Virus record (IMG/VR): IMGVR_UViG_3300044707_000169
Span: 1 to 21,145 of that record
DNA length: 21,145 nucleotides
Reading direction: 5' to 3' (one strand)
Origin: a virus
Shown piece after piece: positions 2,441 to 17,920 of this stretch. The notes beneath the pieces are model-generated. The model did no database searches. It had not been told where the DNA came from and was given only the letters and a program-made list of their open reading frames with translations. The first letter of the stretch is position 1. The number at the start of each line of letters is the position of its first letter. A program made the position numbers and the translations under genes.

Positions 2441-2667
2441 TGTGCAAATATAGTCAATCTTTGATTATGTTGTGCAGTTGGATGTCTGATTAGGTAAGTT
2501 CTATATACACCACTACCTCTTGATGCATTCATCAATTGGGATGCATATGACCGATGAGTGGTAGATGTTGAATGGTAGATGGTATGCCTATCCACTATGG
2601 ATGACTCAATTGGCATCTTGGTATTCATGTACTCAATGGTCTTCTGCTCTATCTCTTGTGGTGTCAT
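2392..2667 (-). CDS. Hypothetical protein, 91 aa
   Basis: Starts at the helicase stop as TAATG, the spacing expected for translational coupling. The first 50 residues (MTPQEIEQKTIEYMNTKMPI, then a Ser/Thr/His-rich stretch) look like a normal protein. The last 16 or so residues are encoded in the overlap with the next gene and are Gln/Arg-rich, so the true C-terminus is the less certain part. No family recognised, no membrane segment. Confidence 0.62.
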   Translation of the reverse strand: MTPQEIEQKTIEYMNTKMPIESSIVDRHTIYHSTSTTHRSYASQLMNASRGSGVYRTYLIRHPTAQHNQRLTIFAQWNNKQQQRIHGVVRG

Positions 2668-4070
2668 TAGAATGGTTTATCATTATCAGATTCAAACCAA
2701 GATGATACTGGCATCCTCATTGGTGCTTCTACTTTGGGTTGGTTGAATACTGGTTGTATGGTGTCATCTTTAAAGTTTGTCATAGTATCATTGTGCCTAA
2801 ACATGACCTTACCCACTGCACCCTGCCTATGCTTCTCAAATAGATAGAATATCTCATTGGTGTAGTCTTGACCATTGTCATCCTGCAACTTGTAGTATGC
2901 AGGTCTCCATATGAAGATAACAGAGTCAGCAGTTTGTTCTATCTCACCCGACTCTCTCAAGTCTGCAAGGATTGGCATCTTGGTGCTTCTCTTCTCCACC
3001 TCCCTTGATAGTTGCGATAGTAGAATGATTGGTATGCCCAAGTCCAATTGGCATCTCTTCAGCAGTTTAATCATGGTGGATACCTCCTGCTCACGATTAC
3101 CCTTATTGCCTCCCTCCAGTTGTAGCAGTTGGAGATAGTCAATCACCACCCACTTGCACCTACCACTCTTGTATGCCTTCTTGATTACCCTTATTGCCTC
3201 ATGTACTCCGCACGATGGTTTGTAGTATACCAATAACTTCTTGGATTCTATTGCACCAATTGACTGCTCCATAGACATCTTCTCCTGCTGCGTTAGGATG
3301 CGCTTCTTGAGTCTTCCACCATCAATTGAACCATCTGCTTGGTTTAGTATCAATCGTTGCGCTAATTGGCTCTTGCTCATCTCACAATTGATGTATACAC
3401 CATACTCGTTGGTAGATAGTCCATGAAAGATTGCCAATGCAGTCTTCCCCATACTTGGTCTGCCTGCAATCACAATTAGTTCAGACTGCCATCCACCAGT
3501 GTAGTCATTCAATACCTTGATGCCAGTATCCACCCCTATCAGTTTTCCATCCTTTGCCATCTCCTCTTGAAGATAGTACAACTTGCGCTCATCATCCATT
3601 AATTCGTAGGTGGTTATCAACTTATCCTCTGCACTATTTGAGTCTATGAGTTTGGTCAACTTCTCAATGATAGATGTGGCAGTCCTAAATCCATCCAATG
3701 TCTTGTCTGAATTCATCAACTCCTCTGATATGATGCTTGGCATCACCCTGCTAATATATGCCTCATTGAGGATGGTTATATACTCAGATAATGGGTCTGT
3801 GAACCGATACGAGTCCATTGTTGATGCCACCACCTTGGTGCAGGATATCTTGGTAGCAATGTCATAGTTGGCTGCTATCTCCTTGCCAAGGGTCAATATG
3901 TTAATCTGCTTGGCTTGCTCCACCATCTTCTTGATGGTCTTAAATATTATCTGCCTTGGCTCATCACTAAAGTGGTCAGCAGTTAATCTTGCCAATACCT
4001 CTGATATGGATTCTGAATTGTTGACCATTAATCCAATCACTGCCAGTTCTATGTCATCTACTTGGTTCAT
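2667..4070 (-). CDS. dnaB: Replicative DNA helicase, DnaB family
   Basis: Hexameric 5'-3' helicase that unwinds the phage fork, 467 aa, the normal length. The N-terminal helical domain spans about residues 1-150 (DDIELAVIGLMVNN start). The RecA-like core has Walker A GRPSMGKT (203-210), the catalytic Glu in NCEMS (E230), Walker B VVIDYLQLL (308-316), LLSQLSREVEKR (350-361) and the DLRESGEIEQTADSV segment (370-384) ending in an arginine-finger region. All catalytic motifs are intact. The start at 4070 overlaps the stop of the upstream 102-aa gene by four bases. No primase domain is fused and no primase or DNA polymerase gene is visible nearby, so the phage probably relies on host enzymes. Confidence 0.96.
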   Translation of the reverse strand: MNQVDDIELAVIGLMVNNSESISEVLARLTADHFSDEPRQIIFKTIKKMVEQAKQINILTLGKEIAANYDIATKISCTKVVASTMDSYRFTDPLSEYITILNEAYISRVMPSIISEELMNSDKTLDGFRTATSIIEKLTKLIDSNSAEDKLITTYELMDDERKLYYLQEEMAKDGKLIGVDTGIKVLNDYTGGWQSELIVIAGRPSMGKTALAIFHGLSTNEYGVYINCEMSKSQLAQRLILNQADGSIDGGRLKKRILTQQEKMSMEQSIGAIESKKLLVYYKPSCGVHEAIRVIKKAYKSGRCKWVVIDYLQLLQLEGGNKGNREQEVSTMIKLLKRCQLDLGIPIILLSQLSREVEKRSTKMPILADLRESGEIEQTADSVIFIWRPAYYKLQDDNGQDYTNEIFYLFEKHRQGAVGKVMFRHNDTMTNFKDDTIQPVFNQPKVEAPMRMPVSSWFESDNDKPF

Positions 4071-4870: not shown

Positions 4871-5491
4871 TCAAGTATTCCAAGCACGAGATTTTGGCTC
4901 TGATTGTTGGCTTGGTGTCTTCAAATCCTGCTTGTTGTTCATCTGCCATCTAACCAATCTACCTTTAACTGACCAAGTTTTCTCAAGTTGGAATCTCATC
5001 CTACCCTTGGCATCCTCTTCTGACCAGTATATGTAGAACTGCCTTAACATCTCATCGCTGAACTCATTTCTATACTTTGCTAATTCTTGTTTGAAAAGAT
5101 GGCTATCCATCTTCTTATAATTAATAATATCATTATCACTTACACTTACACTACCATTAACACTTACACTTACACTAACAGGTTTTCTGGGTTCTGAAAT
5201 AACCGACTGGGTTTTGTGGGTTTCTTCTAAACCATCTTGGTTTGTCTTGGGTCTACCACCCTTCAATCCATTAACTCTTGCACGTTCAGCACGTTGCTCC
5301 CACTTATCTGCATCTCTATCCATACTTGTTCGGATAAATCCAAATGCAATAAATAGTGGGTCTGATGTGCTTGGTGATGTACCATGAATTTGATATTCGA
5401 ATATCATTCGCATAAGTCTTCCAAACTGCTCATCTGAAAGATGCTTGATGGTATCGTAAGTGTCACAATAAAGTAAGAATGATTTTTTCAT
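4871..5491 (-). CDS. Replication-initiator-like protein (DUF6291-type), 206 aa
   Basis: A 206-aa protein beginning MKKSFLLYCDTYDTIKHLSD. Residues 1-60 match the pattern I associate with DUF6291 ('KxSFLLYxDxYxxIxxLSDEQxGxLxxxIFxYQ', then DPLFIAFGFI). Residues 74-82 carry GLKGGRPKT, common in phage replication proteins of this type. A low-complexity linker of alternating Val-Ser (105-118) follows, then a C-terminal helical domain (FYIYWSEEDAKGRMRF and TWSVKGRLVRWQMNN). By family and context the likely job is origin binding or helicase loading, but this is inferred. The DNA of the linker contains direct repeats beside an AT-rich tract, and a structured leader lies directly upstream. Confidence 0.78.
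   Translation of the reverse strand: MKKSFLLYCDTYDTIKHLSDEQFGRLMRMIFEYQIHGTSPSTSDPLFIAFGFIRTSMDRDADKWEQRAERARVNGLKGGRPKTNQDGLEETHKTQSVISEPRKPVSVSVSVNGSVSVSDNDIINYKKMDSHLFKQELAKYRNEFSDEMLRQFYIYWSEEDAKGRMRFQLEKTWSVKGRLVRWQMNNKQDLKTPSQQSEPKSRAWNT
5114..5177. repeat. Iteron-like direct repeats with AT-rich tract, candidate origin
   Basis: A 17-bp sequence, CACTTACACTTACACTA, occurs at 5137-5153 and again at 5161-5177, 24 bp apart start to start; each copy is itself built of a TTACAC hexamer step. Directly beside it, 5114-5136 is almost purely A/T (TTATAATTAATAATATCA). Repeats next to an AT-rich tract inside an initiator gene is the layout of the lambda origin in gene O. The simpler reading is a low-complexity Val-Ser linker. 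Confidence 0.4.
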
Positions 5492-6018: not shown

Positions 6019-6229
6019 CTATATCATTGCGGTCATCAATTGCCTCAATGTATACCTCCACTGCTCTTTGATTCTTATGGTCTACATAGACTCGTGAATA
6101 CTTATAGTTCACATACTTGCTCTTCTCAAATCCACAAGCAGATAAGTAGGCTGCTACATTCTCCAACTTATGATGATATAATTCATCTAAGTTGCCAAGG
6201 TCTTCAAATCTATCGGTTAAAGTTCCCAT
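5978..6229 (-). CDS. Hypothetical protein, 83 aa
   Basis: An 83-aa protein of unknown family. It has an N-terminal helix (LDELYHHKLENVAAYLSACG), then a short beta stretch with several Tyr and basic residues (KYVNYKYSRVYVDHKNQRAV), and an acidic C-terminus. It lacks membrane segments. It overlaps the nuclease upstream by 20 bases and VRR-NUC downstream by about 40, so it is part of the same operon, sandwiched between two nucleases. A regulatory or partner role to either is possible but unsupported. Confidence 0.7.
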   Translation of the reverse strand: MGTLTDRFEDLGNLDELYHHKLENVAAYLSACGFEKSKYVNYKYSRVYVDHKNQRAVEVYIEAIDDRNDIVERIEFLKDVEGI

Positions 6230-6827
6230 CGAATTGTTCTAAAAAGTTAGCGATTAATTGAATTGCGTGGGTTAGTTCATCATCTGAGTGCCTATACAAG
6301 AATAGGTCACTGGATGTGCTACCATTCTTCTTTGCTTTTTGAGGAACACCAATATAATAAAAATCTTTGGGAGTCCACCCCATAAGCATAGAATACCATA
6401 CTGCTTGGATGTGATTGCAATGCTTCAACATATCCTTGGCAAACTGCTCAATGGTCTTGCAATTAGTGGTCTTAATATCCACTATCACCTTGTTCTCGTG
6501 GTACACCATGTCAAGCATTCCCTTGCCCAAAATGTGTTGGGTGCTTCCATCAAGATATGGGATTACTATCTCATCCACCACTATCATCTCCTTCTGTGAG
6601 CCATTGAACAATGCCTCAAGCATAGCATTAGAGCAGATTGCATTGTACACATTGTATGCATCCTTGGACATCTCTGATGGGTCTGTCTCCAACAACTGGT
6701 GGTGGAAAGCAGCACCTTTGTCAAGTGCTGCCTTTACTGATTTGTTAATTGATATATCACCAGTGTAGAATCGTTTGATTCTTGAGGCAGAGATGGCAGG
6801 ATAGTTTATATATTCTTCTCGTGTCAT
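6210..6827 (-). CDS. PD-(D/E)XK exonuclease, RecB/lambda-exonuclease-like
   Basis: A 205-aa nuclease of the Cas4/RecB-like group used in phage recombination. Near the start is YPAISASRIKRF (the 'x-S-x-S-x-x-K-x-F' segment), then KGAAFHHQLLE (His in motif I). The core is LGKGMLDMVY (Asp at about 106), VIVDIKTTN (Asp and Lys at 117 and 119) and IQAVWYSMLMG (Gln and Tyr at 141 and 145), so all catalytic positions are present. I chose the ATG at 6827: it overlaps the upstream stop as ATGA and has GAGGAG directly upstream, one of the few Shine-Dalgarno-like sites here. The alternative at 6872 would overlap the upstream gene by 49 bases. With the SSB-like protein at 7970-8668 it probably forms a single-strand annealing or end-resection module. 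Confidence 0.88.
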   Translation of the reverse strand: MTREEYINYPAISASRIKRFYTGDISINKSVKAALDKGAAFHHQLLETDPSEMSKDAYNVYNAICSNAMLEALFNGSQKEMIVVDEIVIPYLDGSTQHILGKGMLDMVYHENKVIVDIKTTNCKTIEQFAKDMLKHCNHIQAVWYSMLMGWTPKDFYYIGVPQKAKKNGSTSSDLFLYRHSDDELTHAIQLIANFLEQFDGNFNR

Positions 6828-7255
6828 ATCTCCTCGTATGTGATAGTGGTGATTGGTCTCTGTAATTTCCATCCCTTACTTTTCAGATGCAATGCCATCT
6901 GCTCATCAGTCATTGATTTGGATTCATCAATTGGGATGGTTAGTTGTTGTGCAGGTTGTGGTTTCTTAATACCCATCTGATGTATACTATGCATACATTT
7001 ATTATAAGATTTCTTGCTAAATCTGCTTGTCCCTATACACCATTGTTGATATGCACTATCACCATATCCAAGTGCGTTTGAGAAAGTACACTTGTTCATA
7101 TTTAAATACTCCCTAACTCTTTCCATAAACTCAATGATATCATTATGAGTCTGTGTTGTGAATGTGTATTTGCCATTGACAACTGCCTTGTATGGCTTCT
7201 TGGATTCACCATTAAGATGGTTCTTGATTGAGATGGTTGGTCTTGTTGTTTCCAT
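6824..7255 (-). CDS. HTH-like protein, 143 aa
   Basis: A 143-aa protein. Residues about 42-92 (FMERVREYLNMNKCTFSNAL, then GYGDSAYQQWCIGTSRFSKK) have the spacing of an XRE-type helix-turn-helix: an amphipathic helix, 'x-S-x-A-L-G', a short turn, then 'Y-x-x-W-x-x-G'. The first 30 residues resemble an AT-hook-free beta arm (KPYKAVVNGKYTFTTQ). The end, SMTDEQMALHLKSKGWKLQR, is a small motif also seen at the C-terminus of other phage proteins. A DNA-binding or regulatory role is likely but not certain. Four-base overlap with the nuclease downstream. Confidence 0.68.
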   Translation of the reverse strand: METTRPTISIKNHLNGESKKPYKAVVNGKYTFTTQTHNDIIEFMERVREYLNMNKCTFSNALGYGDSAYQQWCIGTSRFSKKSYNKCMHSIHQMGIKKPQPAQQLTIPIDESKSMTDEQMALHLKSKGWKLQRPITTITYEEI

Positions 7256-9365: not shown

Positions 9366-10055
9366 TTACTTGGTTGCTTGAAAAATTATCCCACCACCAA
9401 TGGCAGCACCAAGAATAAATGCAAATCCTTTGGATTGCCACCACTTCTTCTCATCTCTGATGTATAGGTTAGATATACCAGTGATAGTCATATTGGGATT
9501 GTCTATACTCAAACGCACTACTTTATCCCTTCTGCCAAAAATATTCGAAATAAAGCCATCTCTTGCACTATCTCCCACTGCATAGGTCAAAGTACCATAA
9601 GATGCAATTGAATCAATTTGGAGCAGTCCTAAACGATTTATCGTGCCATCTATCGTTAGCCACTTATCTACCTTGCTGAACTCTCTTGGTAGTTTAAGAT
9701 GTGGGAATGAATCAATATAGATTGGCTCACCCAACTGAATCTCTGTCTTGATAATGGTCTTTGTATTTACCTTGACAAGTTCTTGCAGATTCTTTAATCT
9801 TAATCTCTCTGCGTCTTCTTGCAGCATCTTGATGGCAGCATCCTTTGATAGTATATTCTGCTTCTGTGAATACACCACCAAAGAATCATCATAGATTCTC
9901 TTGCTATACTCATCATTAATTCCATTGAGTTCAGTGATATCATCGTGCAGGATTAGATTGGTCTGGCAAGTAGATACCAATGCCATGACAAGTACGGCAA
10001 TGATGATTGCCATCAATATCTTGGATGGGTCAAAGTTAAATTGGGCAGCAGCCAT
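9366..10055 (-). CDS. Spanin-like membrane protein, 229 aa
   Basis: A 229-aa protein with a membrane segment at 13-29 (ILMAIIIAVLVMALVST), then a charged coiled coil (about 37-100), a beta-rich domain (105-200) and a second hydrophobic segment at 209-225 (KGFAFILGAAIGGGIIF). An N-terminal anchor plus periplasmic coiled coil, last in a lysis cassette, suggests a spanin-type function that joins inner and outer membranes. The second segment is unusual for Rz but could reach the outer membrane, as in unimolecular spanins. The Cys after the first segment (VSTC) lacks the small residue needed at -1 for a lipobox. The start overlaps the 69-aa gene. Confidence 0.6.
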   Translation of the reverse strand: MAAAQFNFDPSKILMAIIIAVLVMALVSTCQTNLILHDDITELNGINDEYSKRIYDDSLVVYSQKQNILSKDAAIKMLQEDAERLRLKNLQELVKVNTKTIIKTEIQLGEPIYIDSFPHLKLPREFSKVDKWLTIDGTINRLGLLQIDSIASYGTLTYAVGDSARDGFISNIFGRRDKVVRLSIDNPNMTITGISNLYIRDEKKWWQSKGFAFILGAAIGGGIIFQATK

Positions 10056-10245
10056 CTGTGATGTATAACATTAGTTGGTTAATCCTATCTTGTACTACAT
10101 CTCTTTGCTTAATGCCTTCTATCAGCACATTGATTGCAGTATGAATTGGCATACCCCTCTCAATCACATATAGTGCTGCTACCTTTACCAATCGCTCATC
10201 ACAATCCTCGTCTGTCTTGGGTAGGTATTTTGCAGCATCTATCAT
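10036..10245 (-). CDS. Hypothetical protein, 69 aa
   Basis: A 69-aa helical protein of unknown family (DERLVKVAALYVIERGMPIH, then a second helix with VLIEGIKQRDVVQDR). Its ATG overlaps the TGA of the PAS-DHp gene as ATGA and its end overlaps the spanin-like gene, so it is coupled to both. The size and helix content would allow a partner role for the PAS-DHp protein, but there is no receiver-domain signature (no conserved Asp pocket, too short). Confidence 0.68.
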   Translation of the reverse strand: MIDAAKYLPKTDEDCDERLVKVAALYVIERGMPIHTAINVLIEGIKQRDVVQDRINQLMLYITDGCCPI

Positions 10246-10808
10246 ATCTGTCTTGCAGCCTTTCGAACCAATACTTTTATTACCTCATCCAATCTATTCA
10301 CTGAATCATCCACCATTGACATCAGTTCTTGCCTCTCATTTGGTGATGCATCTGTATTATCCTTGAGCATCCTAACAAGTCCTCCAATAGATGTCAATGG
10401 TTGTCTCAATTCATGGGATAGCATGAATCTAAACTCTTCCAAAAGTATCTTCTGCCTCTCATGTTCGTGGGCAGCAATGGATGTGACATCAATAATCTGC
10501 ATACCTACAAAATGCAAGCAGTCCAAGATACTATAAATATTCCAAAGGTTGTACCTCAATACACCAGTTTTCTGCTTGGTCTTGGCATATACCCTTATGG
10601 GTTCTGGACTCTTATTCTTGCTCTTGTTGATGGCTGCAATTAGGTCATCCCTATCGCTATCAGTGGCAGCAATGTCAGCAATATTCTTGGGCTTGATATG
10701 ACTTATGTATTCTTTGAATAAATCATTAGAGGAGAGTATATTGCCATCTTTCTCTGTCACGAGATAGAACACATCTATGCTTGAATCCAAGATGTATAGC
10801 AATGACAT
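10242..10808 (-). CDS. PAS + histidine kinase DHp (HisKA) protein without ATPase domain, 188 aa
   Basis: An intact 188-aa gene that encodes the sensor and dimerisation part of a histidine kinase and then stops. Residues about 8-110 look like a PAS domain: FYLVTEKDGNILSSNDLFKE at the start, VLRYNLWNIY strand, then HFVGMQIIDVT as the closing strand. Residues 112-188 are a HisKA domain, with the H-box FMLSHELRQPLTSIGG and the phospho-acceptor His at 132, and the second helix (MVDDSVNRLDEVIKVL). No N-, G1-, F- or G2-box follows, and the downstream frame is a different gene coupled by ATGA, so this is not a kinase interrupted by a frameshift. There is no membrane segment. It may take phosphate from, or form mixed dimers with, a host kinase (inference). 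Confidence 0.85.
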   Translation of the reverse strand: MSLLYILDSSIDVFYLVTEKDGNILSSNDLFKEYISHIKPKNIADIAATDSDRDDLIAAINKSKNKSPEPIRVYAKTKQKTGVLRYNLWNIYSILDCLHFVGMQIIDVTSIAAHEHERQKILLEEFRFMLSHELRQPLTSIGGLVRMLKDNTDASPNERQELMSMVDDSVNRLDEVIKVLVRKAARQI

Positions 10809-10828
10809 TTCACAAAGATAGTTAAAAC

Positions 10829-11248
10829 CTATGCTTTGCTCATCTCCTGCTTCAATTCACTAATCAAATTTGTCCAAGATGGTATAGATGTGATGATATA
10901 CTTGGCACTCATCCAAAGGGTGAACCCAAACACAACACCATTCAAAAGTATATCATAGTTCATAGGCATCTCAATATCTGCTTCATTTCTTACGTTGTGA
11001 GTCTTGGCAGTGTAGTACGTTGGAGCAGGATACAAAGATACATCACATGGTGCTATAGTATCAAATGCGGTCAATTCAATTTCTTTTACTGGATGCTTGT
11101 ATGCACCACTCATGACTGCCTCATAAGACTCCTTATTTGCTTCCACCAATGCAGAATCAACATCAACACTTGGATGGTACGTCATAGTGTCTATGTTCAT
11201 CTTTCGATGACTAATGGTCTTGATGGTATCTCTACGAGTCTGCTGCAT
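10829..11248 (-). CDS. Membrane protein in lysis cassette, about 139 aa
   Basis: A protein of unknown family. Near its C-terminus (about residues 98-120 of this form) is a hydrophobic stretch, ILLNGVVFGFTLWMSAKYII, followed by a short amphipathic tail (ELKQEMSKA). The N-terminal part is soluble and contains DTIAPCDVSLYPAPTYYTAK. I chose the ATG at 11248, which overlaps the holin stop by 17 bases; 11281 and 11200 are also possible. A single C-terminal anchor in a lysis cassette could be an accessory holin, antiholin or spanin component. No firm assignment. Confidence 0.62.
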   Translation of the reverse strand: MQQTRRDTIKTISHRKMNIDTMTYHPSVDVDSALVEANKESYEAVMSGAYKHPVKEIELTAFDTIAPCDVSLYPAPTYYTAKTHNVRNEADIEMPMNYDILLNGVVFGFTLWMSAKYIITSIPSWTNLISELKQEMSKA

Positions 11249-11438
11249 CTGTCTTGGCTTTTGGGATGTACCCTGCTGCAATAAGTGTTGCCACTATGGC
11301 TGCAAGTGTCTCTGTGCTTATCACTTTAAAGATTAAAAGAAAGATTGAAACTAATATCATAAGACTACCAATAGTGCTACGCCAATGCTTCACAATGATA
11401 TCAATGATTCGCCTTGGTTTAGTAGGTCTTCTTGGCAT
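11232..11438 (-). CDS. Holin candidate, 68 aa, two membrane segments
   Basis: A 68-aa protein with a very basic N-terminus (MPRRPTKPRRIID), a first membrane segment at about 23-43 (IGSLMILVSIFLLIFKVIST), a short turn and a second, small-residue segment (LAAIVATLIAAGYI, about 45-58), then a short polar tail. Length, two hydrophobic helices and a charged end match class II holins, which permeabilise the inner membrane. It lies one gene downstream of the lysozyme. No family-specific motif, so the call rests on topology and context. Confidence 0.75.
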   Translation of the reverse strand: MPRRPTKPRRIIDIIVKHWRSTIGSLMILVSIFLLIFKVISTETLAAIVATLIAAGYIPKAKTDAADS

Positions 11439-11487: not shown

Positions 11488-11943
11488 TTATTTACACAAT
11501 GAGAAATATAAATTCGCCTCTTCTCGTCTTCTGTTTGTGAGTCCTACTAACACCTTCCCTGCTGCCTTATTCCATCGTAGGAATTCATCAAGGATTGATG
11601 GGTCTGCATTATTGACCTTTGCTTTTTTAAGCAATGTGGATTTGATAAATGAACCAGTGCCAACATTGTAGGCGAATGATACTAATGCATCGAATTGGCA
11701 TTGATTGAGATTAGGCAGATGCTTGTTAACTGCTGCCTCATATGGCTCAAGGGTAGACAATAGCAGTTGTGTTGCCTCCTTTTCACTGCTTAACTTCTCT
11801 CCTAAAAGAACCTTCTTGCCATTGGGATAACGAGTCGAACCATATCCAATGGTAACTACAGATGCAGGACATAGGTAACTTGATAGCCTCAATCCCTCGT
11901 ACTTCTTAATCAGATTTAGTCCAAGGATTGAGGTGGAGCGCAT
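11488..11943 (-). CDS. Endolysin, T4-type lysozyme (GH24)
   Basis: A 151-aa muramidase that cleaves the peptidoglycan sugar backbone. The catalytic layout of the GH24 family, 'Glu - 8 residues - Asp/Cys - 5 residues - Thr', is exact: E16 in KKYEG, C25 in YLCPAS, T31 in VVTIGYG. The second half has QFDALVSFAYNVGTGSF, the conserved Asn-Val-Gly substrate segment, and RRREEANLY near the end. The use of Cys rather than Asp at the second position is a known variant. There is no signal peptide or SAR anchor, so release needs the holin. It follows the small fibre protein directly (stop at 11944), and 49 bases with nothing notable separate it from the holin. Confidence 0.94.
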   Translation of the reverse strand: MRSTSILGLNLIKKYEGLRLSSYLCPASVVTIGYGSTRYPNGKKVLLGEKLSSEKEATQLLLSTLEPYEAAVNKHLPNLNQCQFDALVSFAYNVGTGSFIKSTLLKKAKVNNADPSILDEFLRWNKAAGKVLVGLTNRRREEANLYFSLCK

Positions 11944-16879: not shown

Positions 16880-17920
16880 CTATGGGTTTACGATGCTAAC
16901 GCAGTTAACGTAGTTAACGCCACTGAATTTGTCTGATGCCTCATAGATGTCAGTTGGAAGAGTCACAATCTTTCCAGTTGTGGTCAACACTATTGACAAA
17001 TTTCCGCAATCATCCTTCATGGTTAAATCAGCAGGCAGACCAGCAGGAGTGAATACCAAGGTCTTTGAGTAGTTGCTTCCTGCAACTGGCGTGATACCTT
17101 GATTCCAATCTGCCAAGTTGAATGATAACCACTGGATTGCTCCTGCGGTTGTTACCAATGCAGAATTCTGGTCTCCTTGTGCTGCTGCTAAACGAGCATC
17201 ATAGGCGAACCCGAAACCATTCTGCTGAGTGATGGCAAGCAAGTCAATACCATATTGAGTGCAGCATCCTGCAGCCATAGCATTAGCATAGCGTTGCATT
17301 GCAGCACCACCGAATGCGATTGGTGCAGCAGGATAGTTAGCCATACGAGTTGCCTGCTGAATGTCAGCAATAGCGAATGGGTTTGGTTCATTGCCAGAGA
17401 TAGTTGCAATCTCCAAGCAGTCACCAGTTACTGAATAGAAGCCTTCAACATCAGTACCCCATTTACCAATCTCTGCAACGGCTTGAGTCGCAGCAGCAGA
17501 TGCCACCTTGCGGTCTAACACATCCATCAAACGCATTACCGACTCAAGTACATAACGTGAGTTGTCTTGGCAGTGACGAGCGATGTCAGCAGCATTAATA
17601 AGTTGAGATGCTTGGTATGTATCAGTCACATCCAATGTGTAGGTTGTGGTTGAATCACCATAGGTGTTGGTTGATGTACAAGTGAGGATGTCACCACCTT
17701 CTTCCACTTCTGTTTCGGGAAGACGCTGAATCCAACGTGCTTGCACAGTTTTTAACTTACCACCACTTGGTGATACCTCTTGGCGAATTAATTTTACGTT
17801 TTCGGGAGATAGGAGGAATTCCAAGAATGGTAATTGCTCTCGTTGTCCCACTTCAATGAATAGTTCACTAAGTGACATTTGCACATTAGGACATTCAGAT
17901 AGTATGCGTGAAATTGACAT
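16880..17920 (-). CDS. Major capsid protein (probable)
   Basis: A 346-aa protein that builds the icosahedral shell. I assign it from context more than from motifs: it follows a scaffold-like gene, has its own strong promoter and terminator as expected for the most abundant protein, and has the right length. The sequence has an extended N-arm, then SENVKLIRQEVSPSGGKL-like beta stretches, an Ala/Asn-rich central domain (AADIARHCQDNSRYVLESVM; KVASAAATQAVAEIGKWG; AAPIAFGGAAMQRYANAMAA) and a beta C-terminus. It ends in VSIVNP followed by two consecutive TAG codons. An AAACCCA heptamer spans the last codons. Codon use is smoother than in neighbours, in line with high expression. Confidence 0.82.
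   Translation of the reverse strand: MSISRILSECPNVQMSLSELFIEVGQREQLPFLEFLLSPENVKLIRQEVSPSGGKLKTVQARWIQRLPETEVEEGGDILTCTSTNTYGDSTTTYTLDVTDTYQASQLINAADIARHCQDNSRYVLESVMRLMDVLDRKVASAAATQAVAEIGKWGTDVEGFYSVTGDCLEIATISGNEPNPFAIADIQQATRMANYPAAPIAFGGAAMQRYANAMAAGCCTQYGIDLLAITQQNGFGFAYDARLAAAQGDQNSALVTTAGAIQWLSFNLADWNQGITPVAGSNYSKTLVFTPAGLPADLTMKDDCGNLSIVLTTTGKIVTLPTDIYEASDKFSGVNYVNCVSIVNP
16883..16889 (-). other. Possible -1 slippery heptamer (AAACCCA)
   Basis: On the minus strand the last two sense codons of the capsid gene read A-AAC-CCA, a formal X-XXY-YYZ heptamer directly followed by TAG. After a -1 shift, reading continues for 28 codons without a stop until the TAG at 16802-16800, and the hairpin at 16782-16799 lies after it. 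C as the YYY base is not among the most efficient choices, so this is a candidate only. Confidence 0.35.

Follow-up and report, generated by a model that had tools for sequence, protein, structure and literature searches.

A gene for a predicted protein that joins a PAS domain to a DHp (HisKA) helix pair lies next to the lysis genes in hundreds of uncultured viral sequences, in none of them with the ATPase half of a kinase. What might a phage do with it? The reading favoured here, with a probability of about one half, is that it is a viral member of an ATPase-less class also present in the hosts, and that it serves as a histidine-phosphotransfer node acting on host response regulators. The protein would be cytoplasmic and presumably dimeric. 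Its His132 would take a phosphoryl group from the host, whether from the ATPase domain of a kinase acting in trans or from a phosphorylated receiver, and would pass phosphate to, or draw phosphate from, host receiver proteins, so that late in infection the node would redirect one branch of host signalling. How active it is would probably be governed by its PAS domain and by a 69-aa protein encoded with it. Within this scheme we infer dimerisation, His132 phosphorylation, the direction of transfer, the host partner, the timing and any effect on lysis. A fuller version, possible though distinctly tentative, has a PAS-gated phosphorelay intermediate, equipped with a leaderless promoter and a small partner, that taps host receivers late and couples the state of the cell to lysis; the PAS-linked timing of lysis that the first-pass annotation suggested is an idea drawn from gene position.

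A kinase front half kept by selection

The gene (10242–10808, minus strand, as are all features below for which coordinates in the window, i.e., the whole 21,145-nt stretch of DNA analysed, are given together with a domain or cassette assignment) is a 188-aa ORF with an ATG start. Residues 129–178 match the HisKA profile PF00512 (E = 4.7e-10; 39.8 bits against a cut-off of 26.9), which is matched by all 53 family representatives too. The HisKA histidine is His132, whose codon, read from the sequence within SHELRQP, is at 10413–10415, and the DHp helix pair, assigned on PF00512, the predicted helices and H-box entropy, takes up residues 113–188 (10245–10472). Is what precedes it a PAS domain? 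None of the Pfam PAS profiles is significant in the family, the best being PAS_9 at E = 0.034 in 4 of 53 members, and membership of the PAS fold comes from predicted structure, not from a Pfam profile. Residues 13–112 (10473–10772) are assigned to it on AlphaFold topology, Foldseek matches and collinearity with the PAS domain of PDB 3a0r. The AlphaFold model, built with 53 family members (an input of 8 sequences gave a pLDDT of 53), has a b-b-a-a-a-b-b-b PAS fold at residues 13–105 with pLDDT mostly 80–94, and after it two long DHp helices, 113–150 and 156–187, the mean pLDDT of the model being 76; the chain stops at the end of the second DHp helix. LOV/PAS-histidine kinases are the top PDB matches in Foldseek (E ~1e-6), PAS-B domains are also matched, and residues 10–182 are collinear with the PAS-DHp part of ThkA (PDB 3a0r, labelled Sensor protein; E = 1.2e-8). 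The description in the first-pass annotation, a PAS domain plus DHp without an ATPase domain, is borne out, with HisKA found both by profile and by fold, the predicted PAS fold preceding the helix pair, and no HATPase_c. The list of NCBIfam matches is headed by PhoR models, at 41 bits against a cut-off of 334; mimicry of PhoR was rejected, and with scores so far under the cut-offs no target is inferred for the protein.

An alignment scan of IMG/VR gave 270 stretches with relatives, and a second scan 413, counts that overlap and include near-identical records. As a search with an H-box pattern biases the apparent conservation of the H-box, conservation was instead calculated from loci picked up by patterns lacking it, i.e., 148 complete genes encoding 105 distinct proteins. 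These are 183–189 aa long, and all 105 have His-Glu (His132-Glu133) and end 51–57 residues past the histidine. HELRQP is present in 102 of them, the residue at His+4 being Gln in 102, Ser in 2 and His in 1, and the C-terminus in the family is LVKKA or similar. Protein lengths were alike in the set obtained separately with the H-box pattern. Mean entropy is 0.17 bits for the H-box (residues 121–139), 0.95 for the PAS part and 1.15 for helix 2. The dN/dS of the gene is ~0.05–0.09 (0.05–0.08 for whole genes against their nearest relatives; family median 0.08). No relative has residues beyond DHp helix 2, and no longer version was found. By these measures the gene is intact and under strong purifying selection, and the earlier statement that it lacks signs of decay, its truncated form being what selection kept, agrees with the uniform ends and the low dN/dS; nor is there, among the relatives, a full kinase of which this gene might be a frameshifted copy.

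Among cultured phages no full relative was found; Listeria phage records gave weak matches confined to the DHp. The first scan of genomes for relatives gave no matches and the second, of GTDB genomes, a single one, on a 3.7-kb contig in a Bacteroidota MAG; as that contig has the same cassette gene order it is probably a binned phage fragment.

Cassette, partner and predicted promoter

The gene order lysozyme, holin-like gene, p150, PAS-DHp gene, p69 and a gene for a 229-aa membrane protein is kept in nearly all loci. The lysozyme is the endolysin (11488–11943; PF00959, E = 2.6e-38; phrog_7 endolysin, E = 1.4e-49). The holin-like small membrane protein of 68 aa (11232–11438), conserved in 194 of 197 loci, has a weak PHROG holin match (E = 0.054), and p150 (10829–11281; conserved in 176/197) is small, has a single hydrophobic stretch at its C-terminus and finds no family match in Pfam and PHROG profile searches. 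The 229-aa protein (9366–10055; conserved in 172/197) is a possible, unproven spanin, DUF6549 being matched under the cut-off (E = 6.8e-4). The first-pass annotation had put the PAS-DHp gene between holin and spanin-like genes. Its fixed place in the lysis cassette stands, p150 however separates it from the holin-like gene, and the spanin label is not confirmed, the Rz-like PHROG match being at E = 0.32. In a divergent subgroup a lipoprotein-like ORF (L201:886-1347), with an LSSC lipobox by eye and a C-terminal hydrophobic segment, sits between the p150-like and PAS-DHp genes and is a candidate single-gene spanin.

Immediately downstream is p69, a soluble-looking 69-aa ORF (10036–10245) with the motif LPxTDxECDERL...ERxMP, whose start overlaps the PAS-DHp stop as ATGA (10242–10245). 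It is present in 145 of 148 loci, with the overlap of -4 in 113 of the 148, and 76 of 76 further p69 loci, many of them the same contigs, adjoin a PAS-DHp gene with an H-box. Members of the p69 family, which has no database match, are ~52–70 aa long with the motif LPxTD-x-[ED]CDERL...ERxMP. The two genes are a fixed two-gene unit.

The coupling to both neighbours claimed earlier thus holds on the downstream side. Upstream there is instead a 20-nt gap that contains a Bacteroidota -7 box, TATCTTTG (10813–10820, minus strand), 12 nt before the ATG. In 151 of 198 members a TAnnTTTG box begins precisely 12 nt ahead of the start codon; among distinct upstream regions TAHHTTTG is found in 80 of 112, always 12–15 nt before the start and in 71 at exactly 12. 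The box is within 15 nt of both ATG and GTG starts; it is missing in some subgroups, whose PAS-DHp genes often begin directly at, or within, the gene upstream. The -7 element of Flavobacterium occupies -12 to -5 relative to the transcription start (PMC6847099, PMC9723704), which would place the first transcribed base at the start codon itself when the box precedes that codon by 12 nt. In F. psychrophilum leaderless mRNAs make up only 5.5% (PMC6847099/PMC9723704). Since no clear -33 element is found at a fixed spacing in the PAS-DHp upstream regions, the promoter stays a prediction: the gene is predicted to be transcribed as a leaderless mRNA from a promoter of its own.

The window (1–21145) is a fragment of a tailed-phage genome with nearly all genes on the minus strand. 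It includes genes for the terminase large subunit (2–622), a DnaB helicase (2667–4070), a DUF6291 protein (4871–5491) and a DUF3799 PDDEXK nuclease (6210–6872), and one for a 346-aa protein (16880–17920), without a match in cultured phages, that is a probable capsid protein by position only. The nearest cultured phage by terminase is Flavobacterium phage 11b, at 33.5%. The -7 box, the terminase and the MAG match together point to Bacteroidota hosts, and the carriers are most likely phages of Bacteroidota.

Could the phage itself supply what the protein lacks? In 19 phage records, 18 of them of 34–39 kb, HATPase_c is absent and no receiver domain is over the cut-off, while positive controls were matched; a single receiver-like match, in one record, reached 15.9 bits against a cut-off of 30.2. 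An ATPase or receiver domain encoded elsewhere in the phage was accordingly rejected for these records, and phosphate partners must be the host's unless they are of an unrecognised kind.

Relatives on host chromosomes and the competing readings

When 296 Bacteroidota genomes were searched with the family profile, chromosomal HisKA proteins were matched, at modest scores only. Among the best 20 host loci 14 end shortly past the DHp (13 measured at 56–70 residues after the histidine, L326 by eye), whereas 3 of the 28 HisKA proteins measured for comparison in two of these genomes do so (Fisher p ~4e-5), an enrichment from small samples in which the 20 loci are the most phage-like matches. The median score of the phage DHp is 63.9 bits with a profile of the ATPase-less host proteins and 54.0 with one of full kinases, a moderate advantage for a domain as short as ~60 residues. 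In place of the kinase linker the phage proteins and most of the ATPase-less host relatives have a C-terminal V-x-K-[A/S/T]. With its PAS domain, short DHp end and this terminal motif the phage protein is, by sequence, a member of the class, which is defined here on a small sample and with kinship judged from profile scores and tail lengths. Absence of the ATPase domain is therefore no peculiarity of the phage, as had been supposed, being common to most of its closest Bacteroidota chromosomal relatives, and the phage probably inherited the design rather than trimmed a kinase. With a host ATPase-less protein as query, no match was found in phages.

By Pfam, three of the host proteins are REC-PAS-DHp proteins (L313:4167-5586, L316:3868-5715 and L328:4223-5239). 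Receiver-only genes adjoin L313, L316 (on both sides), L324, L325 and L329, so that two of the three REC-PAS-DHp proteins (L313 and L316) are beside one, though full kinases have such neighbours too. The REC-PAS-DHp proteins beside receiver-only genes look like phosphorelay intermediates. They would be incapable of autophosphorylation, yet appear to have the parts for a relay in which phosphate from the Asp of a receiver reaches the DHp His and then a next receiver. No paper on, or described family of, ATPase-less PAS-DHp or REC-PAS-DHp host proteins was found in the literature searched. Other domain combinations occur on the host chromosomes: an extracellular solute-binding domain (SBP_bac_3) fused to an ATPase-less DHp (L322:5001-6203), and a membrane protein with TPR-like repeats, by eye, and an ATPase-less DHp at its end (L326:5072-6232).

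What, then, does the invariant H-box of the phage protein say? Kinase activity of HisKA proteins depends on the acidic residue that follows the histidine, whereas phosphatase activity does not and requires a Thr or Asn at His+4; in CrdS it was abolished when that Asn was changed to Gln (PMC3510030). As the Glu next to the histidine is invariant, a phosphorylatable histidine is favoured, and with Gln four residues past the histidine the phage DHp fails the HisKA phosphatase motif. The simplest reading is of a histidine that would be phosphorylated by the host and exchange phosphate with host receivers, rather than of a phosphatase.

That the helix bundle instead pairs with a host histidine kinase, poisoning or capturing it, with any phosphotransfer incidental, is unlikely, though kinases dimerise through their DHp helices, the ATPase domain is absent in every member, and there is the precedent of the lytic phage protein PIT4, which binds host kinase domains (PMC10714779). 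For a protein that served purely as a decoy there would be no need to keep His-Glu unchanged; helix 2, a large share of any dimer interface, is more variable than the H-box; and the nearest relatives are ATPase-less proteins and not one host kinase. Strict pairing with p69, from both sides of the search, and the fixed place in the lysis cassette would also suit a protein whose PAS domain bends the helix bundle and so controls p69 or a lysis protein directly, with His132 structural. Less than half of the host relatives without an ATPase domain have kept the Glu beside the histidine, so that phosphorylation by a kinase is not a necessity for their class, and this too can be counted for such a switch; it is nevertheless about as unlikely as the decoy, for in the phage proteins the complete catalytic H-box is invariant, including the Glu needed only for phosphorylation. 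Still less probable is a PAS-controlled phosphatase that dephosphorylates host phospho-receivers: the DHp alone suffices for phosphatase activity in NtrB and EnvZ (PMC3510030), but the required Thr or Asn is replaced by Gln in nearly all members, the change that removed this activity from CrdS. FixL/DctB-type kinases carry Gln at His+4, and the argument from Gln against a phosphatase is not decisive. A functionless remnant of a captured kinase, or a sequencing frameshift or truncation, for which the shortness of the domain compared with canonical kinases might be adduced, can be dismissed on the uniform ends, low dN/dS, fixed gene order and lack of any full-length relative.

Relation to known systems

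If the phosphotransfer reading is right, the protein is a conserved and abundant viral part of a two-component circuit, offering His132 as a single residue to test along with a defined gene pair, where very few phage proteins acting directly on host two-component systems are known. A conserved phosphate-carrying half that never comes with the ATPase half suggests that these phages plug into host signalling circuits late in infection. Attention is drawn, too, to host REC-PAS-DHp proteins that lack an ATPase domain and lie beside receiver-only genes, a neglected class which censuses of kinases based on the ATPase domain (e.g., PMC6365647) miss by design. In the literature searched no description was found of a phage-specific ATPase-less PAS-DHp protein with a dedicated partner gene, in keeping with the earlier remark that no described phage system of this kind was known to its author. 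What is already known are full phage kinases and one phage protein that binds host kinases, and ATPase-less PAS-DHp proteins exist in hosts.

That one protein, PIT4 of Pseudomonas phage LSL4, is likewise directed at host two-component systems. It is an unknown protein from an early gene that binds host kinase domains, no relationship to HisKA being reported in the part of the paper drawn on here (PMC10714779), and according to that 2023 paper no phage protein with a direct action on the two-component systems of its host had been reported earlier. Full-length phage histidine kinases (phrog_10912, phrog_857; in BFVD, e.g., that of Agrobacterium phage Atu_ph07) have HisKA, and some have PAS, but they are long proteins, in contrast to the ATPase-less phage family of 183–189 aa. 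Spo0B and ChpT are DHp-type phosphotransfer proteins, with a four-helix DHp dimer, a phospho-His and no working ATPase; they keep a degenerate CA-like domain and have no PAS. ThkA, collinear with the phage protein through PAS and DHp, has the ATPase (CA) domain that the latter lacks, and autophosphorylates. Closest are the host ATPase-less PAS-DHp proteins (L313, L316, L324, L328 and others), which like the phage protein combine PAS and DHp without an ATPase domain, mostly have the V-x-K-[A/S/T] end in common with it, stop 56–70 residues past the histidine where the phage family stops at 51–57, and match PF00512 over a similar part of the profile (mostly 10–57, against 8–55 in the phage). Compared with that class the phage protein is shorter, is without a receiver, has Glu after the histidine in all members, and is encoded with p69 in a lysis cassette.
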